Positions 29,308 through 36,211 of a stretch of DNA of 50,882 nt are shown in pieces (position 1 is the first letter of the stretch; each line of letters starts with the position of its first letter). The notes under the pieces were generated by a model. It did not search any database. It saw nothing but the letters and a program-made list of their open reading frames with translations, and was not told the DNA's origin. The DNA comes from Bacteroidales bacterium (GTDB lineage Bacteria; Bacteroidota; Bacteroidia; Bacteroidales; VadinHA17): contig JANYIW010000363.1 in assembly GCA_025358645.1 (NCBI GenBank), positions 1-50,882 on the forward strand, in the 5' to 3' direction. The position numbers and the translations under genes are program-made.

Positions 29308-32300
29308 ATGAAAAAAAATGTATTTATCATTCTGATGGTGTTGATGATTCCTATCAAGCTAACGGCCCAACCTTTGGCAAAAAGGCAGCCATATAATATT
29401 TCAAAAGAGAAAGTATTATATGCTATTGGCTACGCCCATCTTGATACCGAATGGAACTGGGAATATCCAACTACTATTAATAAATACATCTGGAATACAA
29501 TGGCGGATAACTTCAGGCTCTTTGAGAAATATCCCGATTATGTTTTCAATTTCACGGGCTCTCGACGATATAAAATGATGAAGGAGTATTATCCTGAATC
29601 ATTTAAAAAAGTTGCAGATTATATCAATCAGGGTCGATGGTATGTCTCAGGATCATCTGTCGATGAAGGGGAAGTAAATATTTCTTCATCTGAATCGGTT
29701 CTTCGTCAGGTACTATACGGGAACCTTTTTTTCAAAAGGGAATTTAATAAAGAAAGTGTTGATTACATGCTTCCCGATTGTTTCGGTTTTGTGGCTACAA
29801 TGCCATCTGTCTGGAGTCATGCCGGTCTTCTGGGATTTTCTACCCAGAAACTTACCTGGCGTTCATCAAACGGTGTTCCATTTAATGTTGGGGTTTGGGA
29901 AGGGCCTGACGGGAAGAGCATTATTGCTGCATTAAATGCCACTGATTACACAGGCAGAGTAGTTCCGCGACTTGACATAGACAGCACCTGGAATGCAAGG
30001 CTTCAGAATGATAAAAACAAATATGGTTTATTGTTTGATTACCGCTATTATGGTGTTGGTGATGTTGGCGGATCACCAAGAGATGAAGATGTAAAAAATG
30101 CTGTTAACAGTCTTAATAAAAGCGATAGCAAATTCAAAGTAATTCTTACATCATCGGATCAGATGTACAAAGATATAACACCTGAAATTCGTTCTAAACT
30201 TCCAACTTATGCCGGAGATCTTCTTTTGATAGAACACAGCGCAGGATCGATGACCTCGGAATCTTATATGAAAAGGGCTAATCGGAAGAATGAAGCCTTG
30301 TCTAAGTCATCCGAACAAGCTGCTTCAATTGCCGATTGGCTGGGTGGGGCATCGTATCCTTTCGGGAAACTTAACAATTCATGGGAACTTCTTCTCGGTA
30401 GTCAGTTTCATGATATACTTCCAGGAACAAGTACTCCTAAGGCATATGAATATGCATGGAATGATGAATTCATTGCTATGAATGGTTTCTCAGAAGTATT
30501 AAAGAACTCGGTAAGTTCAATATCTCACGGTTTAAATACTATGGTTGAAGGGAGAGCAATTGTTGTTTATAATCCTGTAGCGACTGAAAGAGAAGATGTC
30601 GTAACAGCAGAATTATCCTATTCAAAACTGCCTGTAAATATTAAAGTATTTGACAGGAATAATAATGAAATACCTTCTCAGATAGTATCTTCTACAGGTA
30701 ATATGCTCACAATTATTTTTCTTGCAAAACTTCCTTCTGCCGGATTATCAGTATTCGATGTACGGGGAACCACAGAAAAACCCGCTTCTTCTTCATTATC
30801 AGTTACCAATAGTACTTTGGAGAACAGCTATTTTAAAGTCAGAATTGATACAAACGGAGATATTGCCAGCATCTATGATAAGAGGTTATCAAAGGAGGTT
30901 CTTTCAAAGCCAGCCACTCTTGATTTTCAGCAGGAACGACCTTCTCAGTGGCCATCATGGAACATGGATTGGAACGATCGTAAAAATCCGCCAATTGATT
31001 ACATGAATAAGGATGTATCAATCAGGACTGTTGAGCAGGGTCCGGTAAGGATTGCTCTGTCAATAACGAAGAAAGGTCAGAATTCTGAAATAACTCAGAT
31101 TATCAGTCTTGCCTCCGGTGAAGCCGGAAAAGTGATTGAGGTCAGAAATGAAATCGATTGGCAGTCGAAAGAGGTTAGTTTGAAAGCCGCATTCCCGACA
31201 ACTGTTGTAAATGAATTTGCAACCTACGGCCTGAATACTGCTGCTATTAAAAGAACAACAAACAATGATGTTAAGTTTGAAGTCCCTGGCAGACAGTGGA
31301 TTGATATAAGCGATAGATCAAACAGCTTTGGTGTATCTATTCTTGAGGATTGCAAGTACGGTTCCGATAAACCTGATAACAGCACTCTCAGACTCACCCT
31401 GATGTATACTCCAAGAGCAAATTCATTTGTCTACCAGGGTACACAGGATTGGGGAATTCATAAAGTTAAGTATGGTATTTATCCACACTCAGGCGATTGG
31501 GTATATGCAGAAACACCATGGAAAGGGAATTTTCTTAACAATCCTCCGATAGCATTTGAGACCGGGAAACATGCAGGAGATCTTGGTAGAGAGGTATCTT
31601 TCATCAGATCGAGTACAAATCAGGTTGATGTAATGGCTTTTAAAAAAGCAGAAGAGGGTAATTATTATATAGTCAGAGTAAATGAGCTTTATGGGAAGGA
31701 TGCAAAAGGAGTATCGATAAGTTTTCCGGGTAAAATCGTTGATGCTTATGAAGTAAACGGTCAGGAGAAGAAAATCGGAATTATAGATTTCACAAATGGT
31801 GTACTCAACTTTGATATTACCAGGTTCCTGATCAGAACATTTGCGGTTAAATTTGAAAACCAGGTTAGCTCAATTTCAAAACTGGTTCAGGCAGTGGTTG
31901 CAATTCCATATAATGAAGATGGAATCAGTTTTGACTCAAAACGATCTGATGGAAATATTATCAACGGGCTGACGATTCCTGCTGAAATGATCGGAACGGA
32001 AATCGTGAGTGAAGATATCATGTTTAAAATCGGTAACAGCGCTGATGGACAAAAGAATATGCTGGCAGCCAATGGTCAGAAGCTGGAATTACCGGCAGGT
32101 GAATATAATAAGGTATATATTCTTGCGGGAGCCACTGAGGATACGCCGGGTGAAGTGAAAGCCGGAAACAAAGTAGCTGCTTTGAACTTTCAGAATTGGA
32201 CCGGATTTGTTGGACAGCATTATGGCAGGGTACTTTATTTTAATGATCTGAAAGTTGCCTCAATTACAAAAGCCTTCACTAAAAGGGACAACATAGCATG

Positions 32301-33168
32301 GTTTTCATCACACAGTCATACACCTGATGCTAATAATACCTACCAGTACTGTTATCTGTTCAAATATGAAATTTCACTTCCAAAAGGAACAAGATCGATT
32401 ACCCTTCCGAAGAATACTAAGATTAAAATTTTCGCAGTTACTGTCGCTGAAAATAAGAACGAAGACGTTGTTCCGCTTCAGTTACTCTATGATGATTTCA
32501 GGAGTGATAAACCATTACAATTGAGTACGAAGGAATATGTCACATCTGATCTGCAACCGCTGAAATATACTCAGAAACCTCTTTTTAGCCAGAAAATTGA
32601 TGCAAGTCAGATGCCAAGGATAATAGCCTATCTCAAAAGCATTAACTCAGATACTGTGATCGTATCAACACCTCCGTCGGTTACCGATTATGCTGATAAA
32701 AAATCAGGAAACGGCGTAAATGTGACATATTATGCAACTGGTAAATCAAAAAAGGGAATCGGGTACAATAATGAGAAATTTGATCTCTCAAATATTCTTG
32801 ACTCTCAGGATGGAAAACTTAAGGATACCATTCTTTTTGATAATGGTGAAGGAAGAATTATTGTTGATCTCGGGAAACCCATAAGTATTGAAATGATAAA
32901 TATGTACTTTGGACAGTTCAGAAACCGTGGTCCACAGATTTTTACAATCTGGTCATCTATGAAAGAATCTGCAATAAATGGGGACCCTAAGGTTAATGGC
33001 TGGCAGTATGTCGGACTCTACGGTCTCTCAGAAAGAGGAGTGGCTTCATCAGGCACATCTTTTGTATTTGATAATAATTTAAAATGCAGATATATTATGT
33101 TTCTTACTGACGGGAGCTGGCATGGTACTGAATATATTAAACAACTTGATATAATTGAAAAGAAGTGA
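29308..33168 (+). CDS. GH38-type alpha-mannosidase with C-terminal accessory domains
   Basis: Signal peptide; AIGYAHLDTEWNWEYPTTI, DYMLPDCFGFVATMPSVW, SQFHDILPGTSTPKAYEY; C-terminal discoidin-like region (IIVDLGKPISIEMINMYFGQF...CRYIMFLTDGSW). Confidence 0.9.
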   Translation: MKKNVFIILMVLMIPIKLTAQPLAKRQPYNISKEKVLYAIGYAHLDTEWNWEYPTTINKYIWNTMADNFRLFEKYPDYVFNFTGSRRYKMMKEYYPESFKKVADYINQGRWYVSGSSVDEGEVNISSSESVLRQVLYGNLFFKREFNKESVDYMLPDCFGFVATMPSVWSHAGLLGFSTQKLTWRSSNGVPFNVGVWEGPDGKSIIAALNATDYTGRVVPRLDIDSTWNARLQNDKNKYGLLFDYRYYGVGDVGGSPRDEDVKNAVNSLNKSDSKFKVILTSSDQMYKDITPEIRSKLPTYAGDLLLIEHSAGSMTSESYMKRANRKNEALSKSSEQAASIADWLGGASYPFGKLNNSWELLLGSQFHDILPGTSTPKAYEYAWNDEFIAMNGFSEVLKNSVSSISHGLNTMVEGRAIVVYNPVATEREDVVTAELSYSKLPVNIKVFDRNNNEIPSQIVSSTGNMLTIIFLAKLPSAGLSVFDVRGTTEKPASSSLSVTNSTLENSYFKVRIDTNGDIASIYDKRLSKEVLSKPATLDFQQERPSQWPSWNMDWNDRKNPPIDYMNKDVSIRTVEQGPVRIALSITKKGQNSEITQIISLASGEAGKVIEVRNEIDWQSKEVSLKAAFPTTVVNEFATYGLNTAAIKRTTNNDVKFEVPGRQWIDISDRSNSFGVSILEDCKYGSDKPDNSTLRLTLMYTPRANSFVYQGTQDWGIHKVKYGIYPHSGDWVYAETPWKGNFLNNPPIAFETGKHAGDLGREVSFIRSSTNQVDVMAFKKAEEGNYYIVRVNELYGKDAKGVSISFPGKIVDAYEVNGQEKKIGIIDFTNGVLNFDITRFLIRTFAVKFENQVSSISKLVQAVVAIPYNEDGISFDSKRSDGNIINGLTIPAEMIGTEIVSEDIMFKIGNSADGQKNMLAANGQKLELPAGEYNKVYILAGATEDTPGEVKAGNKVAALNFQNWTGFVGQHYGRVLYFNDLKVASITKAFTKRDNIAWFSSHSHTPDANNTYQYCYLFKYEISLPKGTRSITLPKNTKIKIFAVTVAENKNEDVVPLQLLYDDFRSDKPLQLSTKEYVTSDLQPLKYTQKPLFSQKIDASQMPRIIAYLKSINSDTVIVSTPPSVTDYADKKSGNGVNVTYYATGKSKKGIGYNNEKFDLSNILDSQDGKLKDTILFDNGEGRIIVDLGKPISIEMINMYFGQFRNRGPQIFTIWSSMKESAINGDPKVNGWQYVGLYGLSERGVASSGTSFVFDNNLKCRYIMFLTDGSWHGTEYIKQLDIIEKK

Positions 33169-33184
33169 TAAGAATCTGATCAAC

Positions 33185-33210
33185 GCAACCTTTTTTTCAT
33201 AAATTCCATC
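33185..33210 (+). promoter_or_regulatory. Candidate ECF-sigma autoregulated promoter
   Basis: GCAACCTTTTTTT (AACC at 33187-33190), 16 bp, then CATC at 33207-33210. Resembles AAC-N16-CGTC ECF promoters. Confidence 0.45.
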
Positions 33211-33280: not shown

Positions 33281-33841
33281 TTGTCGGAGATAAAAAAAAT
33301 AATAAAAGGTTGTCTTGCCGGTAACAGGAGGGATCAGGAACTTCTGTACAGGAGGCATGCTTCTAAGCTATTTGCTGTGTGTCTGCAGTATTCAGGTAAT
33401 GATGATGAGGCAAGAGATATTTTACAGGAAGGGTTTATTAAGATATTTGAAAACCTTGAACATTTTAAACATGAAGGTTCTTTCGAGGGTTGGATGCGCC
33501 GGATAACTGTTAATACAGCGCTTGAAAAATTCCGCTGCCGGCATAAGCTTTATCGTGTCGATGATATTGATACAATAAAGGAACCCGATGCAGAACCTGA
33601 TAATCAGGATTATGCAGGTCTTGATGCTAAAGATCTACTCGAAATAATCAGGGAATTGCCCACTAAATACAGAATGGTATTTAACCTTTTTGCAATAGAG
33701 GGATATTCGCATAAAGAGATAAGTAAAATAGTGAATATTTCAGAAGGAACTTCAAAATCAAATCTATCCCGTGCACGGGTTATCCTTCAAAGAAGAGTTG
33801 GATCATATACAGGACTTAAGAAGAAAGTAGTAAATGAATGA
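33281..33841 (+). CDS. ECF RNA polymerase sigma factor
   Basis: Sigma2 region (NDDEARDILQEGFIKIFENLEHFKHEGSFEGWMRRITVN) and sigma4 region (ELPTKYRMVFNLFAIEGYSHKEISKIVNISEGTSKSNLSRARVIL). TTG start. Confidence 0.95.
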   Translation: MSEIKKIIKGCLAGNRRDQELLYRRHASKLFAVCLQYSGNDDEARDILQEGFIKIFENLEHFKHEGSFEGWMRRITVNTALEKFRCRHKLYRVDDIDTIKEPDAEPDNQDYAGLDAKDLLEIIRELPTKYRMVFNLFAIEGYSHKEISKIVNISEGTSKSNLSRARVILQRRVGSYTGLKKKVVNE

Positions 33842-35156
33842 AAAAGGGGCAAATATAGATCTTCTCTTCAGAAATGGACTCAAAGATTTTGAAGTACTTC
33901 CCCCACCAGGTGTCTGGGATGGAATTCACTCTGCTATAAAAATTAAATCACGACCGACTATACTACTAAGGATTGCTGCTGCTGTAACTATTCTATTGAC
34001 AGTGAGCTTTTTAACTTACAAATGGAGCAGAGAGATTTCAAGTACTACTTCAGTTTCTGCATTATCTTTTAATATAGGGGCCCCTTCACCTGTTTTTTCT
34101 GTCCCTTTTGATGATTCTCAGTATTTGCCGGCAATAAGAAATAATCAGGCTAGAAACTCTTCAAATGTAATAATGGAACCCCTTAACTATGGTATCATTA
34201 GTGATGCAACTTATGTAGCATTTTCTCCTGAACCAATAATGAATATTCAGGAAACTAAAAGCCTGTCAATAGGGAATAATACAACAGTCAGAGGACCGTT
34301 GCTGGCACTCCCCAATAGGTCTCAGGTAAATTCAATATACATTCAATATCCTGATCTGCAATATTTACTTGTAAATAATTCCACCATACCTGTGAACAGG
34401 TGGTCTATAGCAGCCATGGCTTCACCCACATATTATTCGGGAATAAGTTCGGGGAGTGATCAACTTTCAAACAAGATAATGTCTTCGGAACAACCTCTTT
34501 TTTCGTATTCAGGCGGCCTCTCATTCTCTTATAAAATCAGTAAAAGGTTCAGTATACAATCAGGTCTTTACTATTCATCCTTAGGACAAAAAGTAGATGG
34601 CATAAATTCCTACAGCGGATTTACTCAATATAACAAAACAAAAGGAGATCATAACTTTGAAGTACTTACTTCAAATGGTAAAGTTTTTGCAACCAATCCT
34701 GATGTTTTTCTTACTGCTAATGGTTCAGACAGAATACTTACAGCCTATACAAAAGATGTGTTTGACCCTAATAAAGCAAGCCTTCAATCTGTAAACAATT
34801 CACTAAATCAGAATTTCAGTTACCTGGAATTTCCAGTCATCCTGAGATATAAAATTGTAGATAAAACGATAGATATTAATCTTATCGGAGGATTATCATA
34901 TAATCTATTGGTTCATAATTCAGTATATACAACACTTGATGGTAAGATATACCCTGTCGGGGAAACAAAAGGATTGAATCCTCTTACCTTAAGCAGCTCC
35001 CTCGGGATGGGTATGGAATACAATATCTCTGGTAAACTATCACTCAACCTCGAACCAACTTTCAGATATTACCTCAATCCGTTCAGTGTTACAACAGGCT
35101 CATTCATTCATCCCTATTCTTTTGGAATCTTCTCCGGAGTGTCATATAAATTCTGA
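33834..35156 (+). CDS. Putative dual-membrane-spanning anti-sigma-like protein: short cytoplasmic domain, one TM, long linker, C-terminal outer-membrane beta-barrel
   Basis: aa 1-40 NIDLLFRNGLKDFEVLPPPGVWDGI; TM about aa 41-62; linker about aa 63-188; beta-barrel about aa 189-440 ending GVSYKF. Overlaps the sigma gene by 8 nt. Confidence 0.75.
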   Translation: MNEKGANIDLLFRNGLKDFEVLPPPGVWDGIHSAIKIKSRPTILLRIAAAVTILLTVSFLTYKWSREISSTTSVSALSFNIGAPSPVFSVPFDDSQYLPAIRNNQARNSSNVIMEPLNYGIISDATYVAFSPEPIMNIQETKSLSIGNNTTVRGPLLALPNRSQVNSIYIQYPDLQYLLVNNSTIPVNRWSIAAMASPTYYSGISSGSDQLSNKIMSSEQPLFSYSGGLSFSYKISKRFSIQSGLYYSSLGQKVDGINSYSGFTQYNKTKGDHNFEVLTSNGKVFATNPDVFLTANGSDRILTAYTKDVFDPNKASLQSVNNSLNQNFSYLEFPVILRYKIVDKTIDINLIGGLSYNLLVHNSVYTTLDGKIYPVGETKGLNPLTLSSSLGMGMEYNISGKLSLNLEPTFRYYLNPFSVTTGSFIHPYSFGIFSGVSYKF

Positions 35157-35209
35157 GACCTGATCCGACACAAGATTACCCCGAAATTATTTTTCAGGTG
35201 CAAAAATGT

Positions 35210-35217
35210 TACCTTTG
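35210..35217 (+). promoter_or_regulatory. Candidate -7 element (TAnnTTTG) upstream of the lytic transglycosylase gene
   Basis: TACCTTTG 29 bp before the preferred ATG at 35246. Confidence 0.4.
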
Positions 35218-35245: not shown

Positions 35246-36211
35246 ATGATCAATTCAAAAAGGAAAACGGTACTTACTGCTTTTGTTCTGACAGGCACAG
35301 TTATTATCATTCTTTCAATTGCCCAGAGCTTTAAAGGCTTTAAAAGTAGTCAGGAGGTGGGGGTGAATCATGTAACGGATACACTATATAATATTAAGTC
35401 AATCAAATTGCCTGATGATGTAACATTTGCAGGCGAGAAAATGCCTCTCGCCAACTTCGATACCAGGGAAAGTCTTGAACGTGAAATTCTTACGAGTGCG
35501 TACAGACACTCATCAACGATTTTAATTATAATGAGGGCTCACCGGTATCTCCCTCTTATCGAAAAAGTACTTAAAAAGAATAATGTTCCGGATGATTTCA
35601 AATATCTGGTTGCAGCGGAAAGTGAATACAGCAATATGGTTTCACCTGCCGGCGCTACAGGTTTCTGGCAGATCATGCCTGAGACAGGCAGGGAAGAAGG
35701 AATGGAAATCAATACTGTTGTCGACGAAAGGTATGATGTTGAAAAATCAACCCAATTTGCCTGTGACTACTTTCTTAGGTCGTATGAAAAATATGGTAAC
35801 TGGACCCTCGCCGCAGCATCTTATAATGGTGGGAGAGGGGGAATCGATGAACAGATCGACATTCAGCATCAGAAAAACTATTATGATCTGTTATTGAGCG
35901 ATGAAACAGCAAGATATATATTCAGAGCAGTCGCGTATAAACTTGTTATTACTGATCCTGCGAACTATGGATTTAAAATCGCAATAATGGATCTGTTTCC
36001 CGAACTAAAATTCTATGAAGTTAAAATCGACACAGTTGTAGCCGATTTTTCCGCTTTCGCTCAGAAGTTCGGCACGAATTATAAGATGTTAAAGTTTCTG
36101 AATCCCTGGCTTAGGAAACCATACCTGACACCAAAATCAAATAAGGAATACCTTATTAAGATTCCTTCTGAGGGCATGCGGAATATAGAAAAAACAGAAA
36201 CGGGAAGTTGA
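35246..36211 (+). CDS. Lytic transglycosylase (SLT domain)
   Basis: [36 protein letters not shown] ... [10 protein letters not shown]. Start set at MINSKRKT (signal anchor); the ORF track starts at 35198. Confidence 0.9.

Follow-up and report, generated by a model that had tools for sequence, protein, structure and literature searches.

How the state of the outer membrane is relayed to the cytoplasm in Bacteroidota is largely an open question, and the locus described here poses it in a compact form: can a single polypeptide, whose gene overlaps that of an ECF sigma factor, span both membranes and report on the outer one directly to that sigma factor, and what would the sigma factor then switch on? 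The locus lies in a stretch of 50,882 nucleotides (hereafter the window) from an uncultured Bacteroidales bacterium, the assembly of which is a draft genome of 4.06 Mb in 414 contigs; the named relatives recovered by protein search are all metagenome-assembled Bacteroidales or Bacteroidetes. For this pair of genes we computed, from draft genomes, the gene structure, domain architecture and homology, together with a conserved promoter element and a conserved RNA gene. The two genes are likely to form a Dma/Reo-class switch that responds to envelope stress, in which the N-terminus of the partner holds the sigma factor, its barrel senses, and the sigma factor drives its own operon and a small RNA. 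The two genes and the parts of the partner are as follows.

33281-33841, plus strand: ECF sigma factor, 186 aa, TTG start (Pfam, identity to Das1/Das2, conserved TTG)
33834-33841, plus strand: 8-nt overlap ATGAATGA, holding the sigma stop and the anti-sigma start (kept in nearly all same-genus orthologues)
33834-35156, plus strand: predicted Dma/Reo-class dual-membrane anti-sigma factor, 440 aa, ATG start (Pfam, profiles, AlphaFold, conservation)
33834-33950, plus strand: predicted cytoplasmic sigma-binding module, aa 1-39, with NIDLLFRNGLKDFEVLPPP nearly invariant (HHalign; six tandem copies in L035)
33951-34025, plus strand: inner-membrane helix, aa 40-64 (Kyte-Doolittle, KD, 2.19; AlphaFold helix 40-70)
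34026-34394, plus strand: disordered periplasmic linker, aa 65-187 (pLDDT in the 30s; length 118-158 in 53 homologues)
34395-35153, plus strand: C-terminal 8-stranded outer-membrane beta-barrel, aa 188-440, with Phe at its end (PF13568, AlphaFold, Foldseek, HHalign)

The sigma factor open reading frame matches Sigma70_r2 (54.6 bits) and Sigma70_r4_2 (61.1 bits), both over the Pfam cut-off. The 8-nt overlap to which the first-pass annotation had drawn attention, along with the TTG start, is nearly invariant across about 55 same-genus orthologues, and hence the overlap is not a matter of chance. A TTG start is also found in das2, and perhaps serves to keep sigma synthesis low. Elsewhere in the host (L075:1569-3495, G000:C178), another ECF sigma factor gene is followed by one for a 444-aa protein, in which PKD domains are joined by a likely transmembrane (TM) helix and a CHU_C type IX secretion signal that is weak and below cut-off, and then by a PorP-like gene.

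The architecture of the partner emerges from several kinds of evidence. The residues aa 41-61 form its sole strongly hydrophobic 19-aa window (KD 2.19 vs 0.92 for the next best elsewhere), and an AlphaFold model built from 53 homologues places short helices at 8-15 and 27-35, a TM helix at 40-70, disorder at 70-183 (pLDDT in the 30s) and eight long strands between 190 and 439 (pLDDT around 90); a single TM segment is thus clear from both hydrophobicity and the model. The overall pTM of 0.55 is as expected, because the middle of the protein is disordered. The barrel is recognised by Pfam (PF13568 OMP_b-brl_2, 37.2 bits over aa 203-414 against a cut-off of 27), and its Foldseek matches are the small barrels OmpA, OmpW, NspA, OmpX and Ail, as well as OmpT-like ones; no solved structure matches the partner by sequence. 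Hence, the earlier description of some 40 cytoplasmic residues, one hydrophobic helix at aa 41-62 and a barrel-like C-terminus ending in Phe is borne out at the level of prediction, as is the absence of a lipobox, none being seen on inspection by eye. Its Ser/Asn-rich linker of about 125 aa also stands, as a disordered stretch of about 120 aa with 40% S/N/T/P over aa 67-187, yet "low-complexity" was too strong a term, because many I, L and V residues are present there too.

The three blocks differ in how they have been conserved. Across the 53 homologues, identity to the window protein is 66% in the cytoplasmic segment and 61% in the barrel, and merely 16% in the linker, the length of which is nonetheless held to 118-158 aa in the window lineage and to 108-162 aa in the Bacteroidaceae Dma proteins. 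Length kept while sequence runs free is the pattern required of a tether, which we take the linker to be from these alignments. The periplasm is some 20-30 nm wide and a chain of about 120 residues extends to about 43 nm, so the linker can cross it with slack left. All the predicted parts of a two-membrane topology are present and conserved, and this topology probably holds in vivo.

The relationship to the described Dma proteins can be examined at the level of both genes. The Dma orthologues for this comparison were located by synteny in one genome of another family, rather than by Bacteroides thetaiotaomicron locus tag: Dma2 through the order das2-dma2-DUF4943-DUF4858-NMO, which corresponds to BT_1559 to BT_1555 (PMC13088901), and Dma1 through a das1-dma1 pair divergent from nigD. 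The DUF4943 genes of the host itself have no adjoining ECF gene in the stretches seen. The window sigma factor is 36% identical to the synteny-placed Das1 (E 1e-39) and 35% to Das2 (E 9e-37). One-to-one BLAST of the partner with Dma1 and Dma2 is weak (E 3e-4 and 5e-5), and its homology therefore rests on profiles. When a profile of window-type proteins was aligned by HHalign to one of 20 Bacteroidaceae Dma proteins, the barrel matched with a probability of 99.3 (E 4e-20), the N-terminus alone with 97 (E 1e-10) and the cytoplasmic part alone with 93 (E 3e-7), such that the N-terminus and the barrel each match separately. Ten other partners served as controls for the N-terminus: the FecR-type ones from the same genome mostly scored below 10% probability, with one at 54%, while a short barrel-less anti-sigma factor of a relative scored 96. 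The latter, a 182-aa partner of an ECF sigma factor (L048:1684-2767, G020:C217), combines this N-terminal module with a TM helix, and is apparently the same anti-sigma module without a barrel.

In the maximum-likelihood sigma factor tree, the window sigma factor and eight rows from other families form a clade (support 95/94), from which a Das1/Das2 clade (93/88) and the Das3 fusions (100/99) are separate. The window lineage, Das1, Das2 and Das3 together fall within one superclade (99/97), with the FecR-coupled sigma factors outside it. Fusions of the Dma3 type, in which a single reading frame of 557-587 aa encodes both the sigma factor and Dma, occur in L174, L180, L183 and L185. Given the profile matches and the position in the tree, the pair can be placed as a member of the Dma/Reo class; where the first-pass annotation had left homology or analogy open, these comparisons argue for homology rather than mere analogy. 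On the same grounds it is a separate, new lineage inside the class, an orthologue of none of Dma1, Dma2 and Dma3. Deletion of Dma1 or Dma2 reportedly raises outer-membrane vesicle (OMV) output; because the pair is not orthologous to Dma1, Dma2 or Dma3, control of OMVs cannot be carried over to it.

The genomic setting of the pair is likewise conserved. Among 35 same-genus genomes, 33 were found to carry the partner in an overlapping syntenic pair with the sigma factor, the host having one copy. About half of the additional families sampled from the order have the protein too, and its N-terminus and its barrel stand out as two distinct blocks of conservation. The order lpd-sigma-dma-slt-uvrA runs through the genus and recurs in L030, and sigma-dma-slt-uvrA is also found in L029 and L033, these loci representing three other families. 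An alpha-mannosidase-like gene (29308-33168) sits between lpd and the sigma factor gene in the window and some relatives; it is missing there in most. Downstream of the pair, the following features were defined.

35210-35217, plus strand: TACCTTTG, the Bacteroidota housekeeping -7 box before slt (TAnnTTTG in dma-slt spacers)
35246-36211, plus strand: SLT-domain lytic transglycosylase, MltD-like (PF01464, 72 bits; synteny), the ATG at 35246 being a more likely start than the GTG at 35198

It had been proposed that this transglycosylase could be functionally linked to the pair. Its position is indeed kept, but TAnnTTTG occurs in 53 of 54 orthologous dma-slt spacers, and a terminator separates dma from slt in two genomes; a regulatory link is therefore doubtful, and slt is probably transcribed on its own. 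No terminator was seen in the dma-slt spacer of the window, so read-through from dma into slt may occur there.

Could the partner be something other than an anti-sigma factor that senses the envelope? PF13568 is a large family, and an ordinary outer-membrane barrel might simply happen to be expressed along with an ECF sigma factor unrelated to it. We regard this as highly improbable, since the protein has no obvious cleavable signal and instead bears an internal TM helix after about 39 conserved residues, and since this cytoplasmic segment is near-invariant, matches known anti-sigma proteins and is found in six tandem copies before one TM helix and a barrel in L035:2193-4202 (G045:C45). That repetition fits a sigma-binding module, and the six-module protein possibly holds several sigma factor molecules. 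A subtler alternative retains the entire architecture and makes the barrel a receptor for a ligand (a glycan, an ion or a peptide), the binding of which, rather than faulty assembly or damage, frees the sigma factor. The authors of the Dma2 work proposed glycan sensing (PMC13088901), and the long segment with short strands that AlphaFold places between strands 3 and 4 (aa 262-317), parts of which are well conserved, could be a surface ligand site. However, the barrel is strongly conserved within the genus and the locus is conserved between families, which is easier to reconcile with a general envelope state than with any one nutrient; no glycan-utilisation genes are fixed neighbours of the pair, and Reo reacts to two outer-membrane toxins that are unrelated to each other (PMC9308784, PMC13114119). 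We thus see ligand reception as unlikely, if less so than an ordinary barrel, and sensing of the envelope as the preferred reading.

If the sigma factor is indeed held by its partner, what it drives upon release becomes the next question, and the following element offers a candidate answer.

33183-33210, plus strand: candidate ECF promoter of the sigma-dma operon, with -35 ACGCAACC at 33183-33190, a 16-nt spacer and -10 CATC at 33207-33210

GCAACC-N16-CATC precedes the sigma factor gene in 57 of 60 orthologues, while the surrounding sequence varies. In other families it is found at the sigma factor gene in L029, L030, L031 and L033 and, with small changes, in L035, L037 and L038; it is absent upstream of the Bacteroidaceae das1 and das2. 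The window has one match against 0.07 expected and the host genome nine exact matches (control one). With a stricter pattern, 43 of the 58 genus genomes yield a match, against a single one in total for the control, and the 30 sites in fetched loci comprise 27 sigma promoters, one at the RNA described below and two inside genes. From its position and conservation, we take the element to be the promoter recognised by the window sigma factor. A divergent copy precedes a serpin lipoprotein gene (PF00079) in L029, L031 and L033, from three other families, and in a fourth (L037) a divergent element lies at the contig end; none of the genus serpins checked has the element, and the host is without a serpin. 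Two further serpin genes (L344 and L350, G042:C59) have GCAACC-N16-CATC about 150 nt upstream, and additional intergenic sites occur in L239 and L240, in one genome each.

A second gene carrying this element lies outside the window in the same genome.

L186:1164-1262 (G000:C46): small RNA of about 100 nt with an ECF-type promoter and an intrinsic terminator, genus-wide and not in Rfam

Its core, TAGAATTAACCTAAATTCTA, is followed by the intrinsic terminator; of 56 genus genomes, 47 contain this core, at about one copy each, against three matches in total for the control. At 47 of the 48 loci fetched, the element is found 34-52 nt before the core, the exception, L298, looking like a different sequence. 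Most of the transcripts lack an ATG and the longest ATG frame is 13 aa. The host copy folds better than its shuffles (z -2.7). A first stem, TAGAATT/AATTCTA, was rejected as a helix, given that its 3' half is nearly invariant and its 5' half varies without compensation; it is read as conserved in sequence, with the helix not proven. A covariance model searched over 246 genomes of the order gave strong matches only in the genus; weak ones in 22 other genomes (about 30-35 bits) were discarded as noise, those checked having no adjoining promoter element. A search of the loci against Rfam returned no match and a search of the open-licence literature full texts turned up no account of a small RNA connected with Dma; by these searches the RNA is previously undescribed. 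It has, as do sigma-E-type small RNAs, an ECF-type promoter and an intrinsic terminator of its own.

Two objections bear on this RNA. It may be the 5' leader or attenuator of the PD40 lipoprotein gene that adjoins it (L186:1284-2294 in the host) and lies downstream of it in most genomes, as a rule at a distance of 50-110 nt from the core. We think this improbable: L276 and L280 have the RNA, promoter and terminator intact with the lipoprotein gene missing, on which basis we argue that the RNA is free-standing; further, the terminator helix has compensatory changes at four pairs, and many copies show, as read by eye, a separate TAnnTTTG box after the RNA. Alternatively, another ECF sigma factor that recognises the same kind of promoter may drive the RNA, since about 20 further ECF-like genes are present in the host and ECF specificities can overlap. 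ECF genes usually activate themselves, however, and the element precedes the window sigma factor gene in several families; moreover, of the nine places where the host genome matches the element exactly, just the sigma promoter site and the site of the RNA on contig C46 are intergenic. We give this possibility as little credence as the leader, and hold to a free small RNA under the control of the window sigma factor.

In the mechanism that we propose, the first 39 or so residues of the partner would bind the ECF sigma factor and silence it in the cytoplasm, the single helix would anchor the protein in the inner membrane, the disordered linker of about 120 aa would cross the periplasm and the C-terminal barrel would be inserted in the outer membrane, the sigma factor most likely being held for as long as the barrel is properly placed. 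Failed or disturbed insertion of the barrel, or damage to the outer membrane, would then release the sigma factor, probably, by analogy, via stepwise proteolysis. Once freed, it would recognise GCAACC-N16-CATC, boost its own operon and, in the window genus, also turn on the small RNA, which may retune envelope mRNAs in the manner of MicA and RybB under E. coli sigma-E. The segment TTAACCTAAATTCTACC is a candidate for pairing with mRNAs of outer-membrane proteins around their starts; when targets were predicted among 103 start regions from a part of the host genome, the best z was -2.5, not above chance. Sigma binding, the signal, proteolysis, promoter ownership and the action of the RNA are steps that we infer. 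Published relatives offer precedents: deletion of dma2 derepresses das2 (PMC13088901), disruption of Reo switches on the regulon of its sigma factor, and the toxin BcpT and bacteroidetocin A, an inhibitor of BamA, both induce ecfO-reo, outer-membrane stress being the signal that those authors propose (PMC9308784, PMC13114119). The earlier suggestion that the partner reports outer-membrane state is plausible by analogy with Reo (PMC9308784, PMC13114119). Thus, the locus may be seen as a one-protein outer-membrane alarm that may be wired to RNA-based control.

The experimental work found on the class concerns gut Bacteroides and Phocaeicola; the lineage described here is a further one, deep and widespread, and comes with a defined promoter element. 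Its putative output is small and testable, comprising the operon itself, the new small RNA and, for other families, a serpin lipoprotein. Any Bacteroidales genome can be searched with the promoter pattern for a read-out of the regulon, and the variant with six modules points to a means of mapping the segment that would bind the sigma factor.

The closest known systems are Dma1-Das1 of Bacteroides thetaiotaomicron and Reo-EcfO of Bacteroides and Phocaeicola. These share with the window pair the gene order, the ECF partner, the N-terminal module, the single TM segment, a linker of about 125 aa and the C-terminal barrel, and are homologous by profiles. The window pair differs from them in its separate sigma lineage, in the conserved lpd-sigma-dma-slt-uvrA locus with no nigD beside the pair, in a promoter, GCAACC-N16-CATC, that is not upstream of das1, and in a small RNA that shares this promoter. 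Dma2-Das2 (BT_1558-BT_1559) has the same architecture, overlapping genes and a TTG-started sigma factor, but belongs to a different clade, and the DUF4943, DUF4858 and NMO genes of its operon are not found at the window locus. Dma3 unites the same modules in one gene, where the window has two. In FecR/TonB-dependent signalling, an outer-membrane barrel likewise talks to an ECF sigma factor, but barrel and anti-sigma factor are separate proteins, and the FecR-type partners of the host do not match the window N-terminus. A parallel might also be struck with E. coli sigma-E/RseA and its MicA and RybB, i.e., an envelope-controlled ECF sigma factor whose promoter drives small RNAs, though this is analogy rather than homology: RseA crosses just the inner membrane and relies on RseB and DegS. 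On balance, we lean towards seeing the window pair as a fourth lineage, spread across the order, of anti-sigma factors that span both membranes, with a sigma factor whose core output in the genus is its own operon and one new trans-acting small RNA; it would then represent an independently evolved counterpart of sigma-E/MicA-RybB, in which a single polypeptide replaces a multi-protein signal chain across two membranes.
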